A stretch of 64,000 bases of DNA, taken from contig JAJEEG010000002.1 in assembly GCA_022821085.1 (NCBI GenBank), positions 372,001-436,000 on the forward strand. Direction: 5' to 3'. The DNA is from Candidatus Latescibacterota bacterium. GTDB lineage: Bacteria; JAAXHH01. The notes below the pieces were generated by a model. The model was not told the DNA's origin and ran no database searches. It was given only the letters and a program-made list of their open reading frames with translations. The first letter of the stretch is position 1; every line of letters starts with the position of its first letter. Position numbers and translations under genes: made by a program. Shown one piece after another: positions 27,906 through 61,378 of the stretch.

Positions 27906-30900
27906 TTGCCGAAACGCACCGACATCGAGTCCATCCTGATCATCGGCTCCGGGCCGATCGTAATCGGACAGGCCTGCGAGTTCGACTATTCCGGCACCCA
28001 GGCCTGCAGGGCGCTCCGGGAAGAAGGCTACCGGGTCGTGCTGATCAACAGCAATCCGGCCACGATCATGACGGATCCGGACATGGCGGACCGGACCTAC
28101 GTCGAACCCATCACCGCGGAGTACGTGGAAAAGGTCATCCGGCGCGAGCGCCCCGACGTGCTGCTGCCCACGCTCGGAGGACAGACCGCCCTGAACGTCG
28201 CCGTCGAGCTCGCCGAGTCGGGCACGCTGGATCGTTACGGGGTCGAACTCATTGGCGCCAAGCTGGAAGCGATCAAGATGGCGGAGGACCGGGAGCTTTT
28301 CCAAAAGGCCATGGAACGCATCGGCCTGGAGGTACCCCGGGGCGGCTTCGCGCGGACCGTCGAAGAGGCCTGGGAACTGGTGAAGAATACGGGCTTTCCC
28401 GCCATCATCCGGCCGGCCTTCACCCTGGGCGGCGCGGGCGGGAGCATCGCGCGCAGCGAGTCGGAATACGCCGAGGCCGTCGAATGGGGGCTGTCCACCA
28501 GTCCCATCACCGAGGTGCTGATCGAGGAATCCGTCATCGGCTGGAAGGAATACGAACTCGAGGTCATGCGCGACCTGGCCGACAATGTGGTCATCATCTG
28601 CTCCATCGAGAATTTCGACCCCATGGGCGTACACACCGGCGACAGCATCACGGTCGCGCCCGCCCAGACCCTCACGGACAAGGAATACCAGGCGCTCCGG
28701 AACGCATCGATCAAGGTGATCCGGGAAATCGGCGTGGAGACGGGGGGATCGAATATCCAGTTCGCCGTCAGCCCGGAAGACGGCCGCATCCTGGCCATCG
28801 AGATGAACCCCCGCGTGTCCCGCAGTTCGGCCCTTGCTTCCAAGGCCACGGGATTCCCCATCGCCAAGATCGCCGCGAAACTGGCCGTCGGATACACGCT
28901 GGACGAGATCCCGAACGATATTACCCGGGAAACCCCGGCGTCCTTCGAGCCCACGATTGACTACGTGGTGGTGAAGATCCCGCGGTGGGCCTTCGAGAAA
29001 TTCCCCAACGCCGATACCCAGCTTGGCACGCAGATGAAGTCGGTGGGCGAGACCATGGCCATCGGCCGGACCTTCAAGGAAGCGGTCCAGAAAGGGCTCA
29101 GGGGCCTGGAGATCGACCGCCACGGACTCGGCGCCGACGGGAAGGACGCGGTGGACGCCGGCGCCCTGGCCGCGGGCCGGAACGCTGGACAGGCGGACGA
29201 CCAGGCCGACGGCATGCTGGACGACCTCAGGGAGCAAATGACCCGGCCGACGGCGGAGCGCATCTTCCAGATCAAGACCGCTCTCCAGCTCGGCATGCCC
29301 ATCGAAGAGATCTACGCGTTGACCGGCGTCGATCCCTGGTTCCTGCACAACCTGCGGGACATCGTCGAGCTCGAGGGCGAAATCGGCGCGCACCGGAACG
29401 GGTCCATGCCCCGGAACCTGTTGCACAGGGCCAAGCAGGCCGGTTTCTCCGACGTGCAGATCGCCCACCTGACCGGCAGCGACGAGCGGTCGGTCCGCTC
29501 CCGGCGCATCGAGGCGCGCGTGGACGCCGTATTCAAGACCGTGGACACCTGTGCGGCCGAGTTCGAGGCCATGACGCCCTACTACTATTCGACCTACGAG
29601 ACCGAGAACGAGACCCGGCCCAAGACGCGGGAGACGATCATGATCCTGGGCGGCGGACCGAACCGCATCGGCCAGGGGATCGAGTTCGACTACTGCTGCG
29701 TGCAGGCGGTGATGGCGCTGAAGGAGGACGGGTACGAGACCATCATGGTCAACAGCAACCCGGAAACCGTGAGCACGGATTACGACATCTCGGACCGATT
29801 GTTCTTCGAGCCCCTCACCTTCGAAGACGTGATGAACATCGTCGAAACGGAAAAGCCGGACGGCGTGATCGTCCAGTTCGGCGGGCAGACGCCCCTCAAG
29901 CTGGCCCTGTCGCTCGAACGTGCGGGCGTGCCCATCATCGGCACCTCGCCGGACAGCATCGACCTGGCCGAGGACCGCAAGCGGTTCGGCGCCCTGACGA
30001 AGGCGCTCGGCATCCCCCATCCGCCCCACGGGACGGTCTTCTCCTTCGAGGAGGCCCTGGAGGTGGCGAGCGAGATCGGATACCCCGTGCTGGTGCGGCC
30101 TTCCTACGTCCTCGGCGGCCGCAACATGGCCCTGGTCTACGACGACGACTCCCTGCAGAACTACATGCGGACCGCCGTCCACGTGTCCCCCGAGCATCCC
30201 ATCCTCATCGACAAGTTCCTCGAGGACGCCTTCGAATACGACGTGGACGCCGTCTCCGACGGGACGGACGTCGTCCTGGGCGGGATCATGGAACACATCG
30301 AGGAAGCGGGCATCCATTCCGGGGACAGCGCCTGCGTGCTGCCGCCCTACATGGTCAAGCCCATGCATATCGACACCATGCGGAACTACACCCACGCCCT
30401 CGCGAGAAGCCTCAAGGTCGTCGGCCTGATCAACGTGCAGTACGCCATCAAGAACGACGTCGTATACGTGCTGGAAGTCAATCCGCGCGCCTCGCGGACG
30501 ATACCCTTCGTCTCCAAGGCCATTGGCGTGCCGCTGGCCCAGCTCGCGGCGCGGGTCATGGTGGGGAAGACGCTGCGCGATCTCGGCTTCACCGAGGAAA
30601 TCATCCCGCCCTACGCCTCGGTGAAGGAGGTCGTGCTGCCCTTCGTGAAATTCGCCGGTTCGGACAGCCTGCTCGGACCCGAAATGAAGTCGACCGGCGA
30701 GGTCATGGGCATCTACGAGGAACCGGGCATCGCCTTCGCCAAGGGGCAGAGCGCGGCGGGCGGCTCCCTGCCCCTGTCCGGCACCGTCCTGGTCAGCGTC
30801 AACGCCTTCGACCACGAGAACGTCGTCGACATCGCCCGGGAGCTCGATGGGCTGGGCTTCACGATCATGGCGACGAGCGGTACCGGCCGCACGCTGGAGG

Positions 30901-31199
30901 ACGCCGGACTGGAGGTGGTCCGGGTCAACAAGGTCTGGGAGGGCGAACCGCACATCGTGGACCACATCCGCAGAAGCGACATCCAACTCATCATCAACAC
31001 GCCGCTGGGCAAGAGCGCGCGGGACGACGACTACATGATCCGGCGCGCCGCCATCGAGGCGAACATCCCGTGCATCACCACGCTCTCGGCGGCCTGGTCC
31101 GCGGTCAAGGCCATCCAGGCGCTCAAGAACGAGGGCCGCGAGATCTCGGTGAAGAGCCTGCAGGAATGGCATGAGACGCTTAAAGAAGCGAGGGTTTAG
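27906..31199 (+). CDS. carB: Carbamoyl-phosphate synthase large subunit
   Basis: CarB makes carbamoyl phosphate for arginine and pyrimidines, using ammonia from the CarA glutaminase. The 1097 residues contain two ATP-grasp halves: the first starts [25 protein letters not shown], the second [20 protein letters not shown] near residue 578. The C-terminal MGS-like allosteric domain is present. The start is a TTG giving the family N-terminus [10 protein letters not shown], with AGAGAG just upstream. The linker after the first half holds an extra Ala/Gly/Asp-rich stretch of about 30 residues. carA is not adjacent. argJ follows three bases later. Confidence 0.95.
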
Positions 31200-31202
31200 A
31201 CC

Positions 31203-32414
31203 ATGCAGACGGTAGACGGCGGCGTACTGGCGCCGAAGGGGTTCACAGTCAATACGGCGAGTTGCGGCATCAACAGTCCCAAAGGCAGCCGCAAGGACCT
31301 GGTGGTGATCGACGCGGGCGGGACCGCCTCCGCGGCAGGCGTGTTCACCACGAACCGGGTGCAGGCCGCGCCGGTAGTCCTTTCCAAAGACCATTTGCAG
31401 ACCGGCATGGCGCGGGCCGTCGTGGTCAACAGCGGCAACGCCAACGCGTGCAACGGGGAACCCGGCATGGCGGACGCCCGGGAGATGGCCGCCCTGGTGG
31501 CCGAGGGGCTGTCCGTGCCCGCGAGCGAGATCCTCGTCGCTTCCACCGGGGTCATCGGCCGGCCCCTGCCCATGGACGTGATCCGCGAAGGCATCCGGGA
31601 AGCGCTTGAGCGGCAGGCGCTGGGACCGGACCCGGACGCCGCCGAGTCGATCATGACGACCGACACGGTGCCCAAGACCTGCGCGGTGCGGTGCGATCTG
31701 GACAGCAAGTCCGCGGTGGTCGGCGGGATCGCCAAGGGCGCGGGCATGATCTGTCCGTACATGGCCACGATGATCGGCGTGGTCACGACGGACGCCGCCA
31801 TCGCGCCGGGGGCCCTCCAGGCGGCCCTGCGCCGGGCCGTCGGCAAGTCCTTCAACTGCATCACCGTCGACGGCGACATGAGCACGAACGACACGGTATT
31901 CGTCCTGGCGAATGGCGCCGCGGGTAACCCGGAAATCACCCGGCCGGAAGGGGACGCCTACGAGCGGTTCGCCGAGGCGCTGGAGCACGTCTGCACCGAC
32001 CTGGCGAAGAAGATCGCCCGGGACGGCGAAGGCGCGACCAAACTCGTGGAGATCCGTGTGCGGGGCGCCCGTTCGGACGAGGACGCCCGGACGATCGGCA
32101 TGAGCGTGGCAAACTCCGCCCTCGTGAAGACAGCCATCTACGGCCACGATCCCAACTGGGGCAGGATCCTCTGCGCCGTCGGGTACGCGGACGCCGAATC
32201 GGATCCGGACACGATCGATCTGCTTCTCTGCGGCCACCAGCTGACGCGCGACGGCCAGGGGCTTCCTCTCGACGAGCCGACCATGAGAAAAGCCTTGTCC
32301 GCCAGTGAGATCCCCGTCGAGATCGACCTCAGGCTGGGCGACGGCGCGGCCACGGTATGGACCTGCGACATGTCCCACGAATACGTGACCGTGAACGCGG
32401 AATACACGACCTGA
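31203..32414 (+). CDS. argJ: Bifunctional glutamate N-acetyltransferase/ornithine acetyltransferase
   Basis: ArgJ recycles the acetyl group in the acetylated arginine pathway, moving it from N-acetylornithine to glutamate. The 403-residue protein has the self-cleavage region KGAGMICPYMATMIGVVTTDA, in which the Thr of MATM becomes the nucleophile of the beta chain. The family C-terminus with YVTVNAEYTT is seen. Since ArgJ implies an acetylated arginine route, the LysW operon at 53.8-61.4 kb probably serves lysine. It follows carB by three bases, and the two are presumably one arginine transcript. Confidence 0.93.
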   Translation: MQTVDGGVLAPKGFTVNTASCGINSPKGSRKDLVVIDAGGTASAAGVFTTNRVQAAPVVLSKDHLQTGMARAVVVNSGNANACNGEPGMADAREMAALVAEGLSVPASEILVASTGVIGRPLPMDVIREGIREALERQALGPDPDAAESIMTTDTVPKTCAVRCDLDSKSAVVGGIAKGAGMICPYMATMIGVVTTDAAIAPGALQAALRRAVGKSFNCITVDGDMSTNDTVFVLANGAAGNPEITRPEGDAYERFAEALEHVCTDLAKKIARDGEGATKLVEIRVRGARSDEDARTIGMSVANSALVKTAIYGHDPNWGRILCAVGYADAESDPDTIDLLLCGHQLTRDGQGLPLDEPTMRKALSASEIPVEIDLRLGDGAATVWTCDMSHEYVTVNAEYTT

Positions 32415-51173: not shown

Positions 51174-53672
51174 ATGGCGGTAGAACAACACGACAACATC
51201 CAGCCGATCTTCATCGAAGACGAGATGAAGAGTTCCTATCTCGACTTCTCCATGAGCGTGAACCTGTCCCGGGCGATCCCGGACGTCCGCGACGGGTTCA
51301 AGCCGTCCCAGCGGCGCATTCTCGTGGCGATGCGCGACCTGAACCTGACGCCGGGCCGTCCCACGCGGAAGTGCGCCAAGATCGTCGGCCAGACGATCGG
51401 GGACTACCATCCCCACGGCGACCTGGCCGTGTACGATACCCTCGCGCGGATGGCCCAGCCCTTCAGCATGCGCTACCCCATGGTCTTCGGCCAGGGCAAT
51501 TTCGGATCCATCGACGGCGATCCGCCGGGCGCCATGCGGTACACCGAATCGCGGATGTCCCGCCTGGCCATCGAGATGATGGAGGACATCGACAAGAACA
51601 CGGTCGATTTCATGCCCAACTACGACGAGTCGAAAGACGAGCCGACGGTGCTGCCGGGCAAGTTCCCGAACCTGCTCTGCAACGGGTCGCTCGGCATCGG
51701 CGTGGGCATGGCCTCCAACCTGCCGTCCCATAATCTCAGCGAAGTGGTGGACGGGATCGTGGCGGTGATCGACCACCCGGAAATCACGATCGGGGAGATC
51801 GCCGCGCACATCCAGGGACCGGATTTCGCCACCGGCGCCATCATCTACGGCCGCAACGCGATCAACGAGTATTTCCACACCGGCCGCGGGAAGATCAAGG
51901 TGCGCGCCCGCACGACGATCGAGGTGCACGAGCAGAGCGAGAAGGAAACCATCGTCGTCACGGAGATCCCCTACAAGGTCAACAAGTCCAGCCTGATCGA
52001 GAAGATCGCCGACCTCGTCCGCGAGAAGCAGGTGCTCGGCATTACCGACATACGGGACGAATCGGACCGTTCGGGCATGCGCATCGCCATCGACGTGCGG
52101 CGGGACATCCCGGGCAACATCGTGCTCAACCACCTCTTCAAGATGACGCCGCTGGAGACCACCATCGGCGTCACCATGCTGGCGCTCGTGGACGGCCGGC
52201 CCCGGGTCCTGAACATCAAGGAGTGCATCCAGCACTTCATCGACCACCGCCACGAGGTGCTGGTGCGCCGGACCACCTTCGACCTCGAGAAAGCCGAGCA
52301 GCGGGCCCACATCGTGGAAGGCCTGCGCGTCGCGCTGGACAACGTGGACCGCGTGATCGAAGTTATCCGCGGATCGCATACCGGCGAGGAGGCCATGGAG
52401 GTCCTGGGAGAGGAGTTCGGACTGTCCCGCGCCCAGGTCGAGGCGATCCTGGACATGCGGCTGCAGCGCCTGACCGGGCTGGAAAGAGACAAGCTCGAGG
52501 AAGAGTACGAAGAGCTGGTCGCGCGTATCGCCGATTTCCGGGACATCCTCTCGCGCCTGGAACGCCGGATGCAGATCATCAAGGACGAGATGATCGACCT
52601 GAAGGAGCGCTACGGCGACGAGCGGCGGACCGAGCTGATCGACATCGAGGGCGATCTCAGCATCGAGGACCTGATCGCCGATGAGGAAATGGTCATCACC
52701 ATATCCCACGCCGGCTACGTCAAGCGCCTGCCCATGGACACCTACCGCAGCCAGAACCGCGGCGGCAAGGGGATCACCGGCATGAAAACCCGGGAAGAGG
52801 ATTTCGTGGAGCACCTCTTTTCCGCCTCGACCCACTCCTACATCCTGTTCTTCACGAACCGCGGCAAGTGCTACTGGCTCAAGGTGTGGGAGATCCCCGA
52901 AGCCGGCCGCACCGCCCGCGGAAAGGCCGTTGTCAACCTGCTGCAGCTCGATCAGGGAGAGAGCATCGCGGCCTTCCTGCCCATCAGGACCTTCGACGAC
53001 GAGCACCATATCCTGATGGTGACGCGGGGAGGCCTGGTGAAGAAAACCGTCCTCTCGGCTTACGGGAATCCCCGGCGGAACGGCATCGTGGCGCTGAACA
53101 TCCTCGAGGGCGACGCCCTCATCGAGGCCCTGTTGACCGACGGCGACAACGACATCGTCATCGCCAGCCGGAACGGCCAGGCCGTCCGCTTTCACGAGAG
53201 CGACGTCCGGACGATGGGCCGCGGCGCCCAGGGGGTGCGGGGCATACGCCTCGGCGAAGGCGACCGGGTCGTGGGCATGCTGGCGTCGGGGCGGGACACC
53301 ACGCTGCTCTCCGTGACGGAGAACGGATACGGAAAGCGCACGGACATCGAGAACTACCGGCTGACCCGCCGCCACAGCAAGGGCGTGAGCAACATACGCA
53401 CCAGTGAGCGCAACGGCCCCGTCGTGTCGATTCACGCGGTCTCCGACGAAGACGAGCTGATGATCATTACCACGAACGGCCTCATCATCCGCCTGCCGGT
53501 CCGCGACCTGCGCCCCATCGGCCGGAACACCCAGGGCGTCCGCCTCATCAACCTGGGCGAGGGGGACCGGGTGATCGATGTTTCCAGGATTACGCCGAGC
53601 GGCGAAGAGGACGATCCGGAGTCCTCCGAAACGGCCGAATCACCCGGATCCGACGGCGACGGGGAGGGTTGA
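51174..53672 (+). CDS. gyrA: DNA gyrase subunit A
   Basis: GyrA cleaves and rejoins DNA through its catalytic Tyr, seen in AMRYTESRMS near residue 124. The 832-residue protein has the breakage-reunion domain and six-bladed C-terminal beta-pinwheel, with the gyrase-specific GyrA box-like QNRGGKG at about residue 527, which distinguishes it from ParC. In the quinolone pocket the sequence is HPHGDLAVYD: Leu84 stands where E. coli has Ser83, while the Asp87 equivalent is kept. A short acidic tail ends the protein. AAGGGGAAAG precedes the ATG. Confidence 0.96.
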   Translation: MAVEQHDNIQPIFIEDEMKSSYLDFSMSVNLSRAIPDVRDGFKPSQRRILVAMRDLNLTPGRPTRKCAKIVGQTIGDYHPHGDLAVYDTLARMAQPFSMRYPMVFGQGNFGSIDGDPPGAMRYTESRMSRLAIEMMEDIDKNTVDFMPNYDESKDEPTVLPGKFPNLLCNGSLGIGVGMASNLPSHNLSEVVDGIVAVIDHPEITIGEIAAHIQGPDFATGAIIYGRNAINEYFHTGRGKIKVRARTTIEVHEQSEKETIVVTEIPYKVNKSSLIEKIADLVREKQVLGITDIRDESDRSGMRIAIDVRRDIPGNIVLNHLFKMTPLETTIGVTMLALVDGRPRVLNIKECIQHFIDHRHEVLVRRTTFDLEKAEQRAHIVEGLRVALDNVDRVIEVIRGSHTGEEAMEVLGEEFGLSRAQVEAILDMRLQRLTGLERDKLEEEYEELVARIADFRDILSRLERRMQIIKDEMIDLKERYGDERRTELIDIEGDLSIEDLIADEEMVITISHAGYVKRLPMDTYRSQNRGGKGITGMKTREEDFVEHLFSASTHSYILFFTNRGKCYWLKVWEIPEAGRTARGKAVVNLLQLDQGESIAAFLPIRTFDDEHHILMVTRGGLVKKTVLSAYGNPRRNGIVALNILEGDALIEALLTDGDNDIVIASRNGQAVRFHESDVRTMGRGAQGVRGIRLGEGDRVVGMLASGRDTTLLSVTENGYGKRTDIENYRLTRRHSKGVSNIRTSERNGPVVSIHAVSDEDELMIITTNGLIIRLPVRDLRPIGRNTQGVRLINLGEGDRVIDVSRITPSGEEDDPESSETAESPGSDGDGEG

Positions 53673-53682
53673 AAAAAAGCGC

Positions 53683-53710
53683 TTGACACCTTAAGCGCGC
53701 ACCCTATATT
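53683..53710 (+). promoter_or_regulatory. Promoter of the lysW operon
   Basis: TTGACA (53683-53688) and TATATT (53705-53710) are 16 bp apart, just after gyrA. The leader to lysW is about 97 bases and can form several small hairpins (for example GGGT/ACCC near 53744-53757 and TGGAA/TTCCA near 53760-53778). I cannot match it to a known riboswitch. Confidence 0.8.
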
Positions 53711-53807
53711 GCGTCCGTTCTACAGGAGGAAAGGCCTTCCCCGAAGGGTGAAAGGACCCTGGAAAACGATTCGTTCCAAGGCTGCATTTGTGTAAAGCGG
53801 GGGTACT

Positions 53808-53975
53808 ATGAGCGGGATATGCCCGGAATGTGGCGCCGAGATCACCTTGGACTATGATGTCGTGGTAGGCGAAATCATAACGTGCCCGGAGTGCGGCGCG
53901 GAACTGGAAGTGGTCAGCGTCGACCCACTGGAGTTCGCGCTGGCACCGGAAGAAGAGGAAGACTGGGGAGAATAA
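53808..53975 (+). CDS. lysW: Lysine biosynthesis amino-carrier protein LysW
   Basis: LysW is a tiny acidic carrier whose C-terminal glutamate is linked to the amino group of alpha-aminoadipate, protecting it while the side chain is turned into lysine. The 55-residue protein has two zinc-ribbon pairs, CPECG at residues 5-9 and CPECG at residues 27-31, and ends in EEEDWGE, the family carrier tail with terminal Glu. It is the first gene behind a strong promoter and is separated from the enzymes by a leader reading frame and terminator, which would let the carrier be made in excess. Confidence 0.95.
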
Positions 53976-54018
53976 GCCGCGGACGAAGGGCGGTTTCGAA
54001 AACACTCGGGAAACCACG

Positions 54019-54096
54019 ATGAGCAAACGAATGAAACATAAACATGGTAAACATGATTGTGATTTGAGTTCGTCCGCTCATCGGGCCCCACGGTAA
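54019..54096 (+). CDS. Putative Lys/His-rich leader peptide
   Basis: A 25-codon frame starts [12 protein letters not shown] and ends at TAA (54094-54096). Its first 12 codons contain four Lys (all AAA) and three His (all CAT), in an A-rich island inside GC-rich DNA. It lies between lysW and the lysine-enzyme genes, and is followed by a hairpin that includes its stop codon and by a strong terminator. These are the parts of ribosome-mediated attenuation, as known for his and thr leaders. The initiation signal is weak (GGGAAA at 54008-54013), so translation itself is an inference. Confidence 0.6.
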
Positions 54097-54120
54097 TCCT
54101 GCGAAAGGGATTACGGGGCC
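54084..54120 (+). promoter_or_regulatory. Leader hairpin overlapping the leader-peptide stop codon
   Basis: GGCCCC (54084-54089) pairs with GGGGCC (54115-54120) and GTAATCC (54093-54099) pairs with GGATTAC (54108-54114), with an 8-base loop and a 3-base bulge. A ribosome at the TAA at 54094 would prevent this hairpin from forming. Just downstream, GGAACA (54124-54129) can pair with TGTTCC (54141-54146), or CACGG (54120-54124) with CCGTG (54138-54142); either would compete with the terminator below. Confidence 0.6.
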
Positions 54121-54134
54121 ACGGGAACAGTTGG

Positions 54135-54182
54135 GAGCCGTGTTCCTCTTCGATTGAGCGAAGAGGCCGGCTCTTTTTTTTT
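54135..54182 (+). terminator. Intrinsic terminator/attenuator between lysW and lysX
   Basis: GAGCCG (54135-54140) pairs with CGGCTC (54168-54173), and CCTCTTCG (54145-54152) with CGAAGAGG (54159-54166) around a 6-base loop. Nine T follow (54174-54182). It stands ahead of six lysine-pathway genes and hisS with no second promoter in view, so it is more likely conditional or leaky than absolute. Confidence 0.85.
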
Positions 54183-54210
54183 GCACGCGGGGCAAGGGGA
54201 CGCGGGATCT

Positions 54211-55065
54211 ATGGAATTGGGCATCGTGCTGTCGCGTATCAGGAAGGACGAGAAGCGGTTGATCGCCGAGGCGGGCCGCCGCGGAATCGACGTGAAGACG
54301 ATCGACAACACGCGGCTGGTCTTCGAACTCGAACGGCGCCACATGGACCTGGACGTGGTCCTGGAGCGCTGTATCGATCACCATCGCGCCGTATACGCGC
54401 TGACCGTCTTCGACCACTGGGGCATTCCGACGGTGAACCGCCAATCGGTGGTGGAGACCTACGGCAACCGGCTGCTGACGACCCTGGCCCTGCGGAAGCA
54501 CGGGGTGCCGGTACCGGAAGTGCGCGTGGCATATACGCCGGCCTCCGCACTGGAAGCCATGGAGGACATGGGGTACCCGGTCGTCCTCCGGCCCGTGGAG
54601 GGTCCCGAGGGCCAGCTCGTTTCCCGTATCGGGGACAAGTATACGGCGGCGACGGTCCTGGAGCACAAGCGCATCCTCGGCGCCTATCACCACTCCATTT
54701 TCTTCATGCAAAAGCACATCGATACGCCCGGACACGACATCAGGGCCTACGTGGTCGGCGACGAGACGGTGGCCGCCGTATCGGTGCTGACCCACCACTG
54801 GATCGGGACGATCACCGCCGGCGGCCTGATGAAGCAGGAGCCCGTTACGGAGGAACTGAACGACCTGGCGGTGGGCGCCGTCCGTGCGATCGGCGGCGGT
54901 ATCGCGGTGGTGGACATGGTCCGAACGAAGGATGCCTGGTTCGTGCAGGAGATGGGCCCGCCGTCCGGGCTTTCGGACGCTTCGGACGCCACGGGAGTCA
55001 ACATACCGGGGAAGATCATGGACTACGTGGCGAACGCGGTGGCGCAGGGGGGACGAAACTCGTGA
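54211..55065 (+). CDS. LysX-like ATP-grasp protein, degenerate active site
   Basis: The 284-residue product aligns along its full length with LysX, the ligase that joins LysW to alpha-aminoadipate. However, most ligand residues seen in the next gene are changed: GNK to [14 protein letters not shown] to [23 protein letters not shown] to [21 protein letters not shown] to WIGTITAGG, and the metal-binding NEVNYTMEF to QEMGPPSGL. It may be an inactive regulatory partner of the true LysX or an enzyme with another substrate. I chose the ATG at 54211, ten bases after AGGGGA; an earlier ATG lies inside the terminator. Confidence 0.8.
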
Positions 55066-55901
55066 AGATCGGCATGCTGCTGTCCATCGTTTCCACGGAG
55101 CAGAAGATGCTCTTCGAGGCCGCCGCGAAGCGGGGCATCGTCTTCGACCGGCTGGACGACCGGCGCATCGTCTTCGACCTGGAAAACCACCGGTACGACC
55201 ACGACGTCATCCTCGAGCGGTGCATCAACCACTCCAGGGCCCTCAACTCGCTGAAGATGCTCAACGCCGGCGGCATCCGAACCGTCAACTCCTACGAGGT
55301 CGCCCGCGTGTGCGGGAACAAGTTCCTGACGACCATGGCGTTGGTGGACCATGGAGTGCCGACGCCGAAGGCCCGTGTCGCGTTCACGGCCGAGTCGGCG
55401 CTGGAGGAAATGGAATCCATGGGCTATCCCGTCGTGCTCAAGCCGCCCATCGGTTCGTGGGGGCGCCTCATCGCGCGGGTCAACGACCGTCATGCCGCGG
55501 AAGCGGTGCTCGAGCACAAGGAGACGCTGGGTTCCTACCAGCATTCGGTGATCTACATGCAGGAGTACGTCGAAAAACCCGGGCGGGACATCCGATCCTT
55601 CGTGGTAGACGGCGAGACCATCTGCGCCGTCTACCGGTACTCGGACCATTGGAAAACCAATACCGCCCTGGGCGGCACGACGGCCGACTGTCCCGTGGAG
55701 GGAGACGTGGGCACGCTTTCCGCCCGCGCGGCGGAAGCGGTGGGCGGCGGCGTGGTGGCCGTCGACCTGCTGGAATCGCCGGACGGTATCCTGGTCAACG
55801 AGGTCAACTACACCATGGAATTCCGGAACAGCATCAAGCCGACGGGGGTGGACATTCCCGGCCGAATCATCGACTATCTGGTAAAGGTGGCCCAATCATG
55901 A
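55062..55901 (+). CDS. lysX: Alpha-aminoadipate-LysW ligase
   Basis: LysX uses ATP to couple alpha-aminoadipate to the C-terminal Glu of LysW, the first carrier-bound step. The 279-residue ATP-grasp protein keeps all family residues: [55 protein letters not shown] and the metal-binding [12 protein letters not shown]. It starts at a GTG that overlaps the previous stop (GTGA) and ends by overlapping lysY (ATGA), so the trio is translationally coupled. An ArgX-like glutamate specificity cannot be excluded from sequence alone, but the separate argJ argues for lysine. Confidence 0.88.
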
Positions 55902-56941
55902 TCAAGGTGTCTATCGCCGGCGCTTCCGGATACGGCGGAGGGGAACTGCTCCGCCTGCTCCTGTTCCACCCGGAAATCGAAATCGCACAGGTGACGTCGG
56001 AATCGCTCGCCGGCAAGCCCGTCGGCCGGTCCCATCCAAACCTGCGGCGGGTCACGGACCTCAAGTTCAGCGCCATGGCCGACCTCGAGCCCTGCGACGT
56101 CCTGTGCCTGTGCCTGCCCCACGGGGAGGCGATGAAGAACTGGGACGCCTTTTCCGGCCTGTCGGCCCGCGTCATCGACCTGAGCGCGGACTTCCGGCTG
56201 CGCGATCCGGCGGACTATCCGGCCTGGTACGGACATGCCCATGCCCATCCCGATGTCCTCGGCCGGTTCGTGTACGGCCTGGCCGAGCTCTACCGGGACG
56301 AGATCCGGGACGCCGAATGCGTCGCGTGCACCGGGTGCCTGGCCGCCACGGCGATCCTGTCGCTGGCGCCCCTCGTCAGGGCCGGCGCCGTCGACCCCTC
56401 CCGGCTGTTCATGGAGGGGAAGATCGGTTCCTCCGCGGCGGGAAACCGGGCCGACCGGTCCACCCACCACCCGGACCGAAGCGGGGCCGTGCGTTCCTTC
56501 AAGCCCACGGGACATCGCCACACGGCGGAGATCGTGCAGGAACTTACCTTCGGTGGGCAGATGCCGGAGGTCCATTTCTCGGCGACGGCCATCGAGCTGG
56601 TGCGCGGCATCCTCATGACGACCCATGCTTTCGTGAACGACGGCCTGACCGAAAGAGACCTCTGGGGCATCTACCGGGAGGCCTATGGCCGGGAACCCTT
56701 CATCCGCATCATCAAGGAACGCCAGGGCGTGTTCCGGTATCCCGACCCGAAGTTTCTCGCGGGCACCAACTTCTGCGACATCGGGTTCGAGCGCGACGAT
56801 CACAGCGACCGGGTCGTGGTCATGGGTGCGCTGGACAACCTGGTCAAGGGCGCGGCCGGACAGGCCGTGCAGGCCCTCAACATCATGCATGGGTGGGACG
56901 AGCGGACGGGGCTGGAATTCCCGGGCCTACACCCGGTCTAG
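55898..56941 (+). CDS. lysY: LysW-aminoadipyl phosphate reductase (ArgC/LysY family)
   Basis: LysY reduces the LysW-bound aminoadipyl phosphate to the semialdehyde with NADPH. The 347-residue protein starts with the nucleotide-binding [22 protein letters not shown] and has the catalytic cysteine in [29 protein letters not shown] and [18 protein letters not shown] near the end are family signatures. The ATG at 55898 overlaps the lysX stop by 4 bp. It is an ArgC homologue; context makes the LysW-linked role the likely one. Confidence 0.9.
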
Positions 56942-56961: not shown

Positions 56962-58223
<1,262 letters not shown>

Positions 58224-58227
<4 letters not shown>

Positions 58228-59021
58228 TCGTGGTGAAGACGGGCGGAAGCCGGGGCATCAACCTGGATTACGTCCTGGAAGACATCGCCCGGCAGACCGA
58301 ACAACTGGTGCTGGTGCACGGCGCGTCCGACGAGTTGAACCGGATATCCGAGCAACTGGGCAAGCCGCCCCGCATGGTCACGTCGCCGTCGGGATACACG
58401 AGCCGGGTCACCGATCAGGAAACCCTGGACATCTTCACCATGGTGTACTGCGGTAAGCGCAATACCCGCATCGTCGAGAAACTGCAGCAATTGGGCGTCA
58501 ACGCCGTCGGCCTGAGCGGCGTGGACGGACGGCTGCTCGAAGGCCGCCGGAAGCCCAATATCCGCATCGTGGAGGACGGCCGGACGAAGATCCTGCGGGA
58601 CGACTACACCGGCCGGATCGAACGGGCGAACGTGTCGCTCCTGACTACGCTCCTCGACCAGGGTTACCTGCCCGTCATCAGTCCCCCCGCCATCAGCTAC
58701 GAAGGCGAGGTGATCAACATTGACGGGGACCGCGCGGCCGCGGTGATCGCCGACGCCCTCGGCGCGGAACGGCTGGTCATCCTCTCCAACACGCCGGGAT
58801 TCCTGGAGGATGCGGACGACGAGAATACGCTGATCCCCCGGATATCCCGGGACGGAATCGACGAAGCGATCGCGACCCATGCCCGGGACCGCATGAAGAA
58901 GAAGCTGCTCGGCGCGAAGGAGGCGCTGGAGGTCGGCGTGGCCCAGGTGATCCTGGGGGACGGCAGGATACCCGAACCGGTCACGGCGGCCCTGCGGGGC
59001 GCGGGCACGGTGATCGGATAG
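58224..59021 (+). CDS. lysZ: LysW-aminoadipate kinase (ArgB/LysZ family)
   Basis: LysZ phosphorylates the side-chain carboxylate of LysW-bound aminoadipate. The 265-residue amino-acid kinase has VVKTGGSRGINLDYVL at the ATP site, LVLVHGASDELNRIS, and the C-terminal VINIDGDRAAAVIADALGAERLVILSNTPGFL. Its ATG overlaps the hisS stop (ATGA). The last codons and the stop lie at the start of a 33-bp tandem repeat. Confidence 0.9.
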
Positions 59022-59155: not shown

Positions 59156-60325
59156 ATGACAGACTACCAGACCATGGAAAACCAGGCGTCGATGGGTATT
59201 CTGCCCAAGCGGGACGTGGTGATCGTCCGGGGCAGCGGCGCGCGCCTCTGGGACAGTACCGGCAAGGAATACATCGATTGCATCGGCGGGATCGGCACGG
59301 CCAACGTAGGCCACTGCCATCCAACCGTGACGGAAGCGGTCGCGCGTCAGGCGGAGCGGCTCGTGATCTGTCCGGACACCTTCTACAACGACCTCCGGGC
59401 GGAACTGGGCACGGCCCTGACCCGGGTCGCCCCGGAAGGGCTGGACCGGCTCTTCCTGTGCAATTCAGGTACGGAAGCGGTGGAGGCGGCGTTTAAGTTC
59501 GCCCGCGTCGCTACCGGACGGACGGGCATCATCGCGGCCCAGCGCGGATTTCACGGACGCACCTTCGGGGCCCTGAGCGCGACCTGGAATCCCAAGTACC
59601 GCGCCCCCTTTGAACCTCTCGTACCCGGTTTCACCCACGTGAAATACAACGATGTCTCCGCCATGGAGGAATCCATCGACGACGAGACGGCCGGGGTGAT
59701 CCTGGAAGTGGTGCAGGGCGAGGGCGGCGTCCGCATCGGCGACGGCGCGTATCTGAACCGCGTGGAAGCCCTGTGCCGGGAACGAGGCGCCCTGTTCATC
59801 GTGGACGAAGTGCAGACCGGGTTCGGGAGGACAGGCGCCCTGTTCGCCTGCGAGCACCATGGCCTGCAGCCGGACATGCTCTGCCTGGCCAAGGCGATGG
59901 CCGGCGGCCTGCCCGTGGGCGCGACGCTTTGCGCCGAAACGGTCCGGGGCGTCCCCGCCATGTCCCACGGCAACACTTTCGGCGGCGGCCCGGTAATCTG
60001 CGCGGCCGGCCTGGCCACGCTTCGCGTGCTGGAGGAGGAAGGACTCGTCGAGAACGCACGGAAGAACGGCGCGTATTTTCGGGATGCCCTCGCGGCGCTG
60101 GACGCGCCCTTTGTCCGGGAGATCAGGGGCATGGGCCTGATCATCGGCGTCGAAATGAAGGGACGGGTCACGCCCATTCTCCGCGGTCTTATGGAGCGAG
60201 GCGTAATGGCGCTGCCCGCGGGCAACACGGTATTGCGCTTCCTTCCGCCCCTGTCGATTTCCAGGGAGGAGATTGACCAGGTCGTAGAGACCGTAGACGC
60301 GGTGCTTGGATCGTTGGAGGCTTAA
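59156..60325 (+). CDS. lysJ: LysW-aminoadipate semialdehyde aminotransferase
   Basis: LysJ transfers an amino group from glutamate to the LysW-bound semialdehyde, giving LysW-lysine. The 389-residue class III PLP enzyme shows IGGIGTANVGHCHP, CNSGTEAVEAAFKFAR, DEVQTGFGRTGALF and the PLP lysine in LCLAKAMAGGLPVGA. I chose the ATG at 59156, where GGAGCAAGG lies upstream, rather than starts further left that would read through the tandem repeat. The stop touches the lysK start. Confidence 0.9.
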   Translation: MTDYQTMENQASMGILPKRDVVIVRGSGARLWDSTGKEYIDCIGGIGTANVGHCHPTVTEAVARQAERLVICPDTFYNDLRAELGTALTRVAPEGLDRLFLCNSGTEAVEAAFKFARVATGRTGIIAAQRGFHGRTFGALSATWNPKYRAPFEPLVPGFTHVKYNDVSAMEESIDDETAGVILEVVQGEGGVRIGDGAYLNRVEALCRERGALFIVDEVQTGFGRTGALFACEHHGLQPDMLCLAKAMAGGLPVGATLCAETVRGVPAMSHGNTFGGGPVICAAGLATLRVLEEEGLVENARKNGAYFRDALAALDAPFVREIRGMGLIIGVEMKGRVTPILRGLMERGVMALPAGNTVLRFLPPLSISREEIDQVVETVDAVLGSLEA

Positions 60326-61378
60326 ATGAGTCGCGACCGCGACGACGTCGCGCTGCTGCGGGGCCTGGTCGAGCGTTACAGTCCTTCCACCCAGGAGGGC
60401 GAGGCCGTCTCCTTCCTGGTGGACGCCATGGACCGGAGAGGGATCCGCGCCTACGTGGACGAGGCCGGGAACGCGGTGGGCGAACTCGGCTCCGGCGAAC
60501 CGCACATCGCCATGGTCGGGCATATCGACACGGTACCCGGCATCGTTCCCATCCGGGAGGAATCGGGCAGGCTTTACGGCCGCGGTACGGTAGACGCCAA
60601 GGGTCCCCTGGCGGCCTTCGCGGCCGCCGCGAGCCGGCTCACGGAAACCACCGGCGGGCGGATCACCGTCGTCGGCGCCGTGGAGGAGGAGTGCCCCACC
60701 TCGAAGGGCGCCCGCCACCTGGTGGACCGCATGCGGCCCGACTGCGTGTTCATCGGCGAACCGAGCGGCTGGGACAGCGTCACCATAGGGTACAAGGGCC
60801 ACGTGGGATTCGACTACCGCCTCGAGCAGCCCAACGCCCATCACGCGGGCGACCACAAGCGCGCCGCCGAAAGGGCGATCGACCTGTACAACGAAATGCA
60901 AGCGCGCGTCGCCGGCCAGGTCACGGAAAGCGAATTCGAGTCTCCCCGGCTCGAGTTGAGACGATTCAATACCAGCGACGAGGGATTGACCGAGGGCGTC
61001 GAAGCTTACTTTTCGGTGCGCGTGCCGCCCGGTTACGACCTGGACGGCCTGATCGGCTTCGTGAAGGCACAGGCGGGCCCGGCGGAAATCGAATGTGACC
61101 AGCGCCTGCCGGGTGTAGTCGCTTCGAAGAACACGGCGCTGATCCGGGCCCTGTTGCGGGGCATCCGCCAGGAAGGCGGCCGGCCGACCTTCAAGAAGAA
61201 GACGGGCACGTCCGACATGTGCATCGTCGGACCGGCCTGGGATTGCCCGATCGCGGCCTACGGACCCGGCGACTCCAGCCTGGACCATACCCCGGACGAG
61301 CACATCGTCCTGGACGAGTACCTGTGCTCCGTCGAAGTGCTGACGACCGCGCTGAAGCAGCTGACCTCAGCCGCTTGA
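60326..61378 (+). CDS. lysK: LysW-lysine hydrolase (M20 family)
   Basis: LysK releases free lysine from the LysW carrier, ending the pathway. The 350-residue zinc peptidase-family protein has the metal ligands in MVGHIDTVPG, GRGTVDAKGP and the catalytic and ligand glutamates in AVEEECPTSKG, followed by FIGEPSGWDSVTIGYKGHVGF. Its ATG follows the lysJ stop directly. This is the last gene of the operon; the next gene is on the opposite strand. Early steps (homocitrate synthase and others) are not in the window. Confidence 0.9.
   Translation: MSRDRDDVALLRGLVERYSPSTQEGEAVSFLVDAMDRRGIRAYVDEAGNAVGELGSGEPHIAMVGHIDTVPGIVPIREESGRLYGRGTVDAKGPLAAFAAAASRLTETTGGRITVVGAVEEECPTSKGARHLVDRMRPDCVFIGEPSGWDSVTIGYKGHVGFDYRLEQPNAHHAGDHKRAAERAIDLYNEMQARVAGQVTESEFESPRLELRRFNTSDEGLTEGVEAYFSVRVPPGYDLDGLIGFVKAQAGPAEIECDQRLPGVVASKNTALIRALLRGIRQEGGRPTFKKKTGTSDMCIVGPAWDCPIAAYGPGDSSLDHTPDEHIVLDEYLCSVEVLTTALKQLTSAA

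Follow-up and report, generated by a model that had tools for sequence, protein, structure and literature searches.

The question raised by this locus is whether the spacer between the carrier gene lysW and the ligase and enzyme genes behind it holds a switch for the latter. The window, i.e. the whole stretch of DNA that was analysed (64,000 nucleotides), corresponds to positions 372001-436000 of contig C2 in a genome of 3.75 Mb. Its close public relatives are bins from metagenomes that carry the label Gemmatimonadetes or Candidatus Latescibacterota, and from the isolate names of these relatives we read the bacteria as sponge-associated. The genes are arranged in the order gyrA, promoter, lysW, element-bearing spacer, ligase paralogue, lysX, lysY/argC-like gene, hisS, lysZ, lysJ and lysK (Table 1), and a transcript started at the lysW promoter has to pass an intrinsic terminator, preceded by a conserved leader frame, before it reaches the enzyme genes and hisS. 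The element in the spacer is a real, conserved regulatory element. As judged from sequence comparison and folding, it is probably (probability about 0.62) an internal ribosome-mediated transcription attenuator with lysine and histidine control codons.

A consensus scan of positions 53000-55000 returned a single promoter-like site, the one before lysW, and the TTGACA/TATATT arrangement was found again before lysW in the relatives where the sequence is shown. From the end of the terminator to the start of the first ligase gene (54182-54211), where a promoter would make the terminator irrelevant, the same scan gave no promoter-like site. The order from lysW to lysK was unchanged in all genomes with enough sequence (14/14; the window and 13 relatives), with hisS inside the operon in 14/14 genomes covering that part and gyrA located 5' of it throughout the genus; the contig of G015 stops within lysX and does not cover the later gene order. 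All genes that the earlier note had listed behind the terminator are present, and a second ligase gene (55062-55901) was missing from its list. This gene is likely the true lysX: its product carries the GSWGR motif (the LysW-tail motif; PMC10433800) and an NYTMEFRN stretch, matching NHTMEFKN of a Thermus-like genome. The divergent paralogue in front of it is conserved in 15 genomes of the phylum; GSWGR is replaced by GPEGQ and the NYTMEF signature is lost, including its Asn. It is perhaps a non-catalytic partner of LysX.

Table 1. Features of the lysW operon and of its internal element (positions refer to the window)
Feature	Position	Strand	Evidence
Sigma-70-like promoter, TTGACA-16-TATATT, 5' of lysW	53683-53710	+	promoter consensus scan
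lysW, carrier protein, C-terminal EDWGE	53808-53975	+	TIGR01206, 75.7 bits (cut-off 53.2)
Weak Shine-Dalgarno-like GGGAAA	54008-54013	+	sequence
Hairpin A:B, enclosing codons 1-21; start codon paired with codons 20-21	54017-54083	+	-27.2 kcal/mol, z -6.1
Leader frame, 25 codons and stop TAA; control-codon core K6-H7-K8-H9	54019-54096	+	sequence, relatives
Strand B segment GCUCAUCG, complementary to terminator loop	54076-54083	+	pairing comparison
Hairpin C:D, including the leader stop codon	54084-54120	+	-22.2 kcal/mol
Candidate antiterminator GGAACA/UGUUCC (54124-54129 with 54141-54146), overlapping the terminator 5' arm	54124-54146	+	-8 kcal/mol, z -1.0
Intrinsic terminator: hairpin 54135-54173, then nine T (T54174-T54182)	54135-54182	+	sequence, folding
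Loop of the terminator with the top of its stem, CGAUUGAGC; one bulge in its complementarity to strand B	54151-54159	+	pairing comparison
Divergent LysX paralogue without GSWGR or NYTMEF signature; first gene after terminator	54211-55065	+	241 bits (below cut-off 275.6)
Likely lysX proper, second ligase gene	55062-55901	+	323 bits (over cut-off)
lysY/argC-like reductase	55898-56941	+	TIGR01850, 383.6 bits
hisS, histidyl-tRNA synthetase	56962-58227	+	TIGR00442, 491 bits
lysZ, [LysW]-aminoadipate kinase	58224-59021	+	NF010659, 391 bits (over cut-off)
lysJ-like transaminase	59156-60325	+	NF042418, E 5.8e-138 (below its cut-off); TIGR00707, over cut-off
lysK, [LysW]-lysine hydrolase	60326-61378	+	NF003367, 405 bits (over cut-off)

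In the leader frame, lysine is encoded by AAA at codons 3, 6, 8 and 11 and histidine by CAT at codons 7, 9, 12 and 21, which includes the four AAA and three CAT codons among the first 12 that had been described in the earlier note. With the Lys/His frequency of the neighbouring genes as background, at least seven such residues in codons 2-12 have a probability of about 5e-7. The neighbouring genes use AAA for 34 of 219 lysine and CAT for 43 of 142 histidine codons; the leader core uses these minority codons exclusively. The Shine-Dalgarno-like site reads AGGAAA in most relatives. Each of the 12 genomes of the genus has the core 12-mer AAACATAAACAT exactly once, within the leader, and the element is single-copy in the genome. 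Candidate second copies of the element were short chance matches only; that in G012 lies in a thrS-dominated contig stretch and is no leader. Further occurrences of the 12-mer in G012 and G013 were put down to chance and rejected as not comparable to the leader.

Conservation was assessed in a sample of 16 genomes of the phylum, 15 of which carry a ligase of the LysX family (G014 has no LysX match). All 12 species sampled from the genus carry the element, and so does G013, which belongs to a second genus. An alignment of the spacer from related genomes had been proposed in the earlier note as a check, and frame, Lys/His core, hairpins and terminator (hairpin and T-run) indeed persist in all 13 genomes from the two genera. 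The first 142 columns of this alignment are free of gaps. The frame measures 25 codons in 13/13 genomes, although the second hairpin around its end has been rewritten between species, and codon 26 is TAA (8 genomes), TAG (2) or TGA (3). L012 carries a frame-keeping insertion of 6 bases before the ATG and an additional in-frame ATG six bases upstream. Codons 6-9 are the conserved ones, while codon 11 specifies Lys, Tyr or Asn; the K-H-K-H core is also present in G013, shifted two codons onward in frame. G012 and G015, which represent two further genera, have the terminator alone at this site, with no leader frame. In other lineages, 15 LysX loci were inspected: at most of them lysW adjoins lysX or overlaps with it, and a hairpin lies between them in few. 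Among the genomes examined, a long leader-bearing lysW-lysX spacer is thus special to this group.

The spacer as a whole folds with a z-score of -5.8. The hairpin around the leader stop codon and the terminator with its nine T were present as the earlier note had described them; the stronger hairpin at 54017-54083, for which none of 200 shuffles was as good, was absent from its description. All pairs of this first hairpin are preserved at alignment columns 11-14 and 19-23. In the second genus, two A-C mismatches of the first genus are closed, giving an unbroken stem of 13 pairs that starts from the A of the start codon. In relatives, hairpin C:D is shifted in register and carries a compensatory change. 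Both-sided changes were detected in four pairs of the tested structure, three in the first hairpin (between genera) and one in the terminator, as compared to 1.1 +/- 0.8 in shuffled alignments (0/500 as high). The overall covariation score was not above that of shuffles because most pairs never vary. Within leader codons 1-18, 5 of 18 third positions vary, whereas in the ligase gene next to it the figure is 61%; variation at first and second positions is roughly as in that gene. The low third-position variation argues for selection on the RNA structure beyond the peptide alone, and the leader seems to be constrained by both pairing and codons. Searches against Rfam, including the T-box and lysine riboswitch models, yielded nothing at E values up to 1 except a single sub-threshold match, located elsewhere, to an unrelated family; a T-box and a lysine riboswitch were rejected on the absence of covariance model matches.

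For the proposed attenuator, the following sequence of events is predicted. The leader frame would be translated, and low levels of charged tRNA-Lys or tRNA-His would stall the ribosome at codons 6-9. The stalled ribosome would cover strand A and free strand B, for whose action the capture of the terminator loop would be the best candidate. Termination would then decrease, leading to expression of the ligases, the reductase, hisS, lysZ, lysJ and lysK, and lysW would be made always, whatever the state of the terminator.

This scheme was compared with equilibrium foldings in which a ribosome-sized mask was placed on each codon of the leader and the stability of the terminator was compared, for 13 species. 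With a mask on codons 6-9, strand A is covered and strand B becomes free; on codons 10-12, the mask sits in the loop and the outer stem stays closed. Structurally, a stall at the core is favoured mainly because the conserved codons 6-9 coincide with the mask positions that free strand B. With a ribosome on codons 6-9, the terminator was equally or more stable than with no ribosome in most of the 13 species. The clear exception was L011, in which a ribosome at codons 8-9 changed its stability from -13.7 to -10.1. The competing pairing that the earlier note had expected to disrupt the terminator exists (GGAACA/UGUUCC); it is weak, and in equilibrium folding it forms largely regardless of the ribosome position, so that the folding does not support ribosome-controlled competition at this pairing. 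A classical B:C/D:E relay as in his was unsupported by masked folding in the first genus, and D:E pairing (9/9 pairs) was seen in L013 only. The pairing between strand B and the terminator loop comprises 8/8 pairs in 12/12 genomes of the genus, with three substitutions retaining it as G-U. In the species of the genus that were tested, no or hardly any other segment of the leader pairs better with the loop than strand B does (-9.9 to -12.0 kcal/mol; p from shuffles 0.01-0.11 in the individual species). G013 lacks this pairing. The pairing is a candidate mechanism that fits a stall at the core. It is doubtful whether the full geometry applies, a new one in which a lysine and histidine attenuator behind the carrier gene buries its start codon in the first hairpin and a stall at K-H-K-H frees strand B for capture of the terminator's apical loop, a mimic of strand A.

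The small influence of ribosome position on terminator stability would also be expected if the terminator were constitutive and partly efficient, setting the ratio of the LysW carrier to the enzymes, with a leader frame that senses nothing. L014 and L015, which have no leader frame, retain a terminator between lysW and lysX, and the Thermus-like L135 has a terminator-like hairpin there as well. This explanation is nevertheless unlikely, as it does not account for a 25-codon frame kept with changing stop codons, for its Lys/His core or for the strong hairpin that encloses it.

A ribosome positioned further downstream has a larger effect: mainly at codons 18-25, it made the terminator 3-6 kcal/mol less stable in several species. 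Nascent-peptide arrest near the stop codon, or a protein or metabolite bound to the hairpin, could open C:D and reduce termination, the reverse of classical attenuation. The unusual constraint on the third positions of the leader and the conservation of the peptide past the Lys/His core within the genus (CDLRSSAHR) are in line with such a mechanism. We consider it rather improbable, given that L008, L009 and L010 do not show the effect at codons 18-25, that the second genus shows little of it and has not kept the C-terminal half of the peptide, and that Rfam gave no match. It is very improbable that the frame encodes a small functional histidine-rich peptide, perhaps metal-binding, with the terminator belonging to its gene: KHKHGKHDC may resemble a metal-binding stretch and the neighbouring LysW is itself a CxxC zinc-finger-like protein, but the cysteine and the histidine spacing are lost in the second genus, positions 10, 11, 17, 19, 21 and 25 vary, and a hairpin hides the start codon.

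With regard to what the attenuator would sense, lysine is the presumed product of the operon, since family searches returned no homocitrate synthase in any genome of the genus that would account for alpha-aminoadipate. The earlier note had stated that the operon makes lysine and contains hisS, and the latter part was confirmed. Family searches for DapB had no result in the 12 genomes of the genus or in G013, and true LysA was not found in the 12 genomes of the genus. DapB is present in G012, G014 and G015, all of which are without the leader. Across these few genera, the leader therefore occurs where no route to lysine other than the LysW operon is visible. As a separate observation, the combined lack of DapB, true LysA and homocitrate synthase matches in the genus bears on the supply of both its lysine precursors and its cell-wall diamino acid. 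The histidine codons of the leader fit the presence of hisS in the operon. As their sole reason, hisS was rejected, given that G012 has hisS at this place and no leader. Arginine codons occur in the leader too, so that arginine may be sensed as well. Synthesis of arginine itself seems to follow the acetyl route, apart from the LysW operon: argJ (31203-32414) directly follows carB (the two spanning 27906-32414), and a second argC is located at C1:109702.

The his, thr and trp operons of enterobacteria are controlled by leader-peptide attenuators. They share with the element a short frame rich in codons for amino acids of the pathway, a leader hairpin and, ahead of the enzyme genes, an intrinsic terminator. 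Unlike in these operons, the start of the frame including the start codon lies in the first hairpin and the stop codon in the second, the element is placed behind the first gene, the core alternates between two amino acids, and ribosome-gated competition is a candidate only. Leader-peptide attenuation was reportedly described in J Biol Chem in 2005 for the lysine cluster of Thermus thermophilus, a LysW-type pathway, with the leader upstream of the homocitrate synthase gene and not, as here, between lysW and lysX. The earlier note, which knew of no such switch for a LysW pathway, was therefore probably wrong on this point. Leader-peptide attenuation is a known kind of control, and the element is most likely a case of it in a new phylum and position; we know of no description of it in either. 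In bacilli, histidine-rich leader peptides precede hisS* and hisZ (PMC2965389). A histidine-codon leader before a gene of the histidyl-tRNA synthetase family is common to both cases; in bacilli, the histidine codons lie directly upstream (PMC2965389), whereas here hisS comes fourth among the genes behind the terminator and lysine alternates with histidine. The three-hairpin attenuator of ilvBNC in Corynebacterium glutamicum, whose terminator and antiterminator were tested by mutation (PMC11857589), likewise combines a leader peptide with terminator and antiterminator hairpins that overlap and a further hairpin in front of them; it differs in the amino acids and the gene position.

If the attenuator reading is true, leader-peptide attenuation would extend to an uncultured phylum, and a single two-codon sensor would couple lysine synthesis to the supply of histidyl-tRNA synthetase. 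The carrier of a carrier-protein pathway would be constantly on while its enzymes are switched, and the locus would offer a testable sequence-level case of attenuation within an operon instead of ahead of it.

Hairpins between the two genes were also observed elsewhere. In L135, the terminator-like hairpin (GGGGAAGGCGATAGGCCTTCCCCTTTT) lies at 1441-1500 on the reverse complement, and no leader frame was seen. Outside the phylum, lysW of L123 (G070) is followed by a hairpin with a T-run and then by a second LysX-type ligase.
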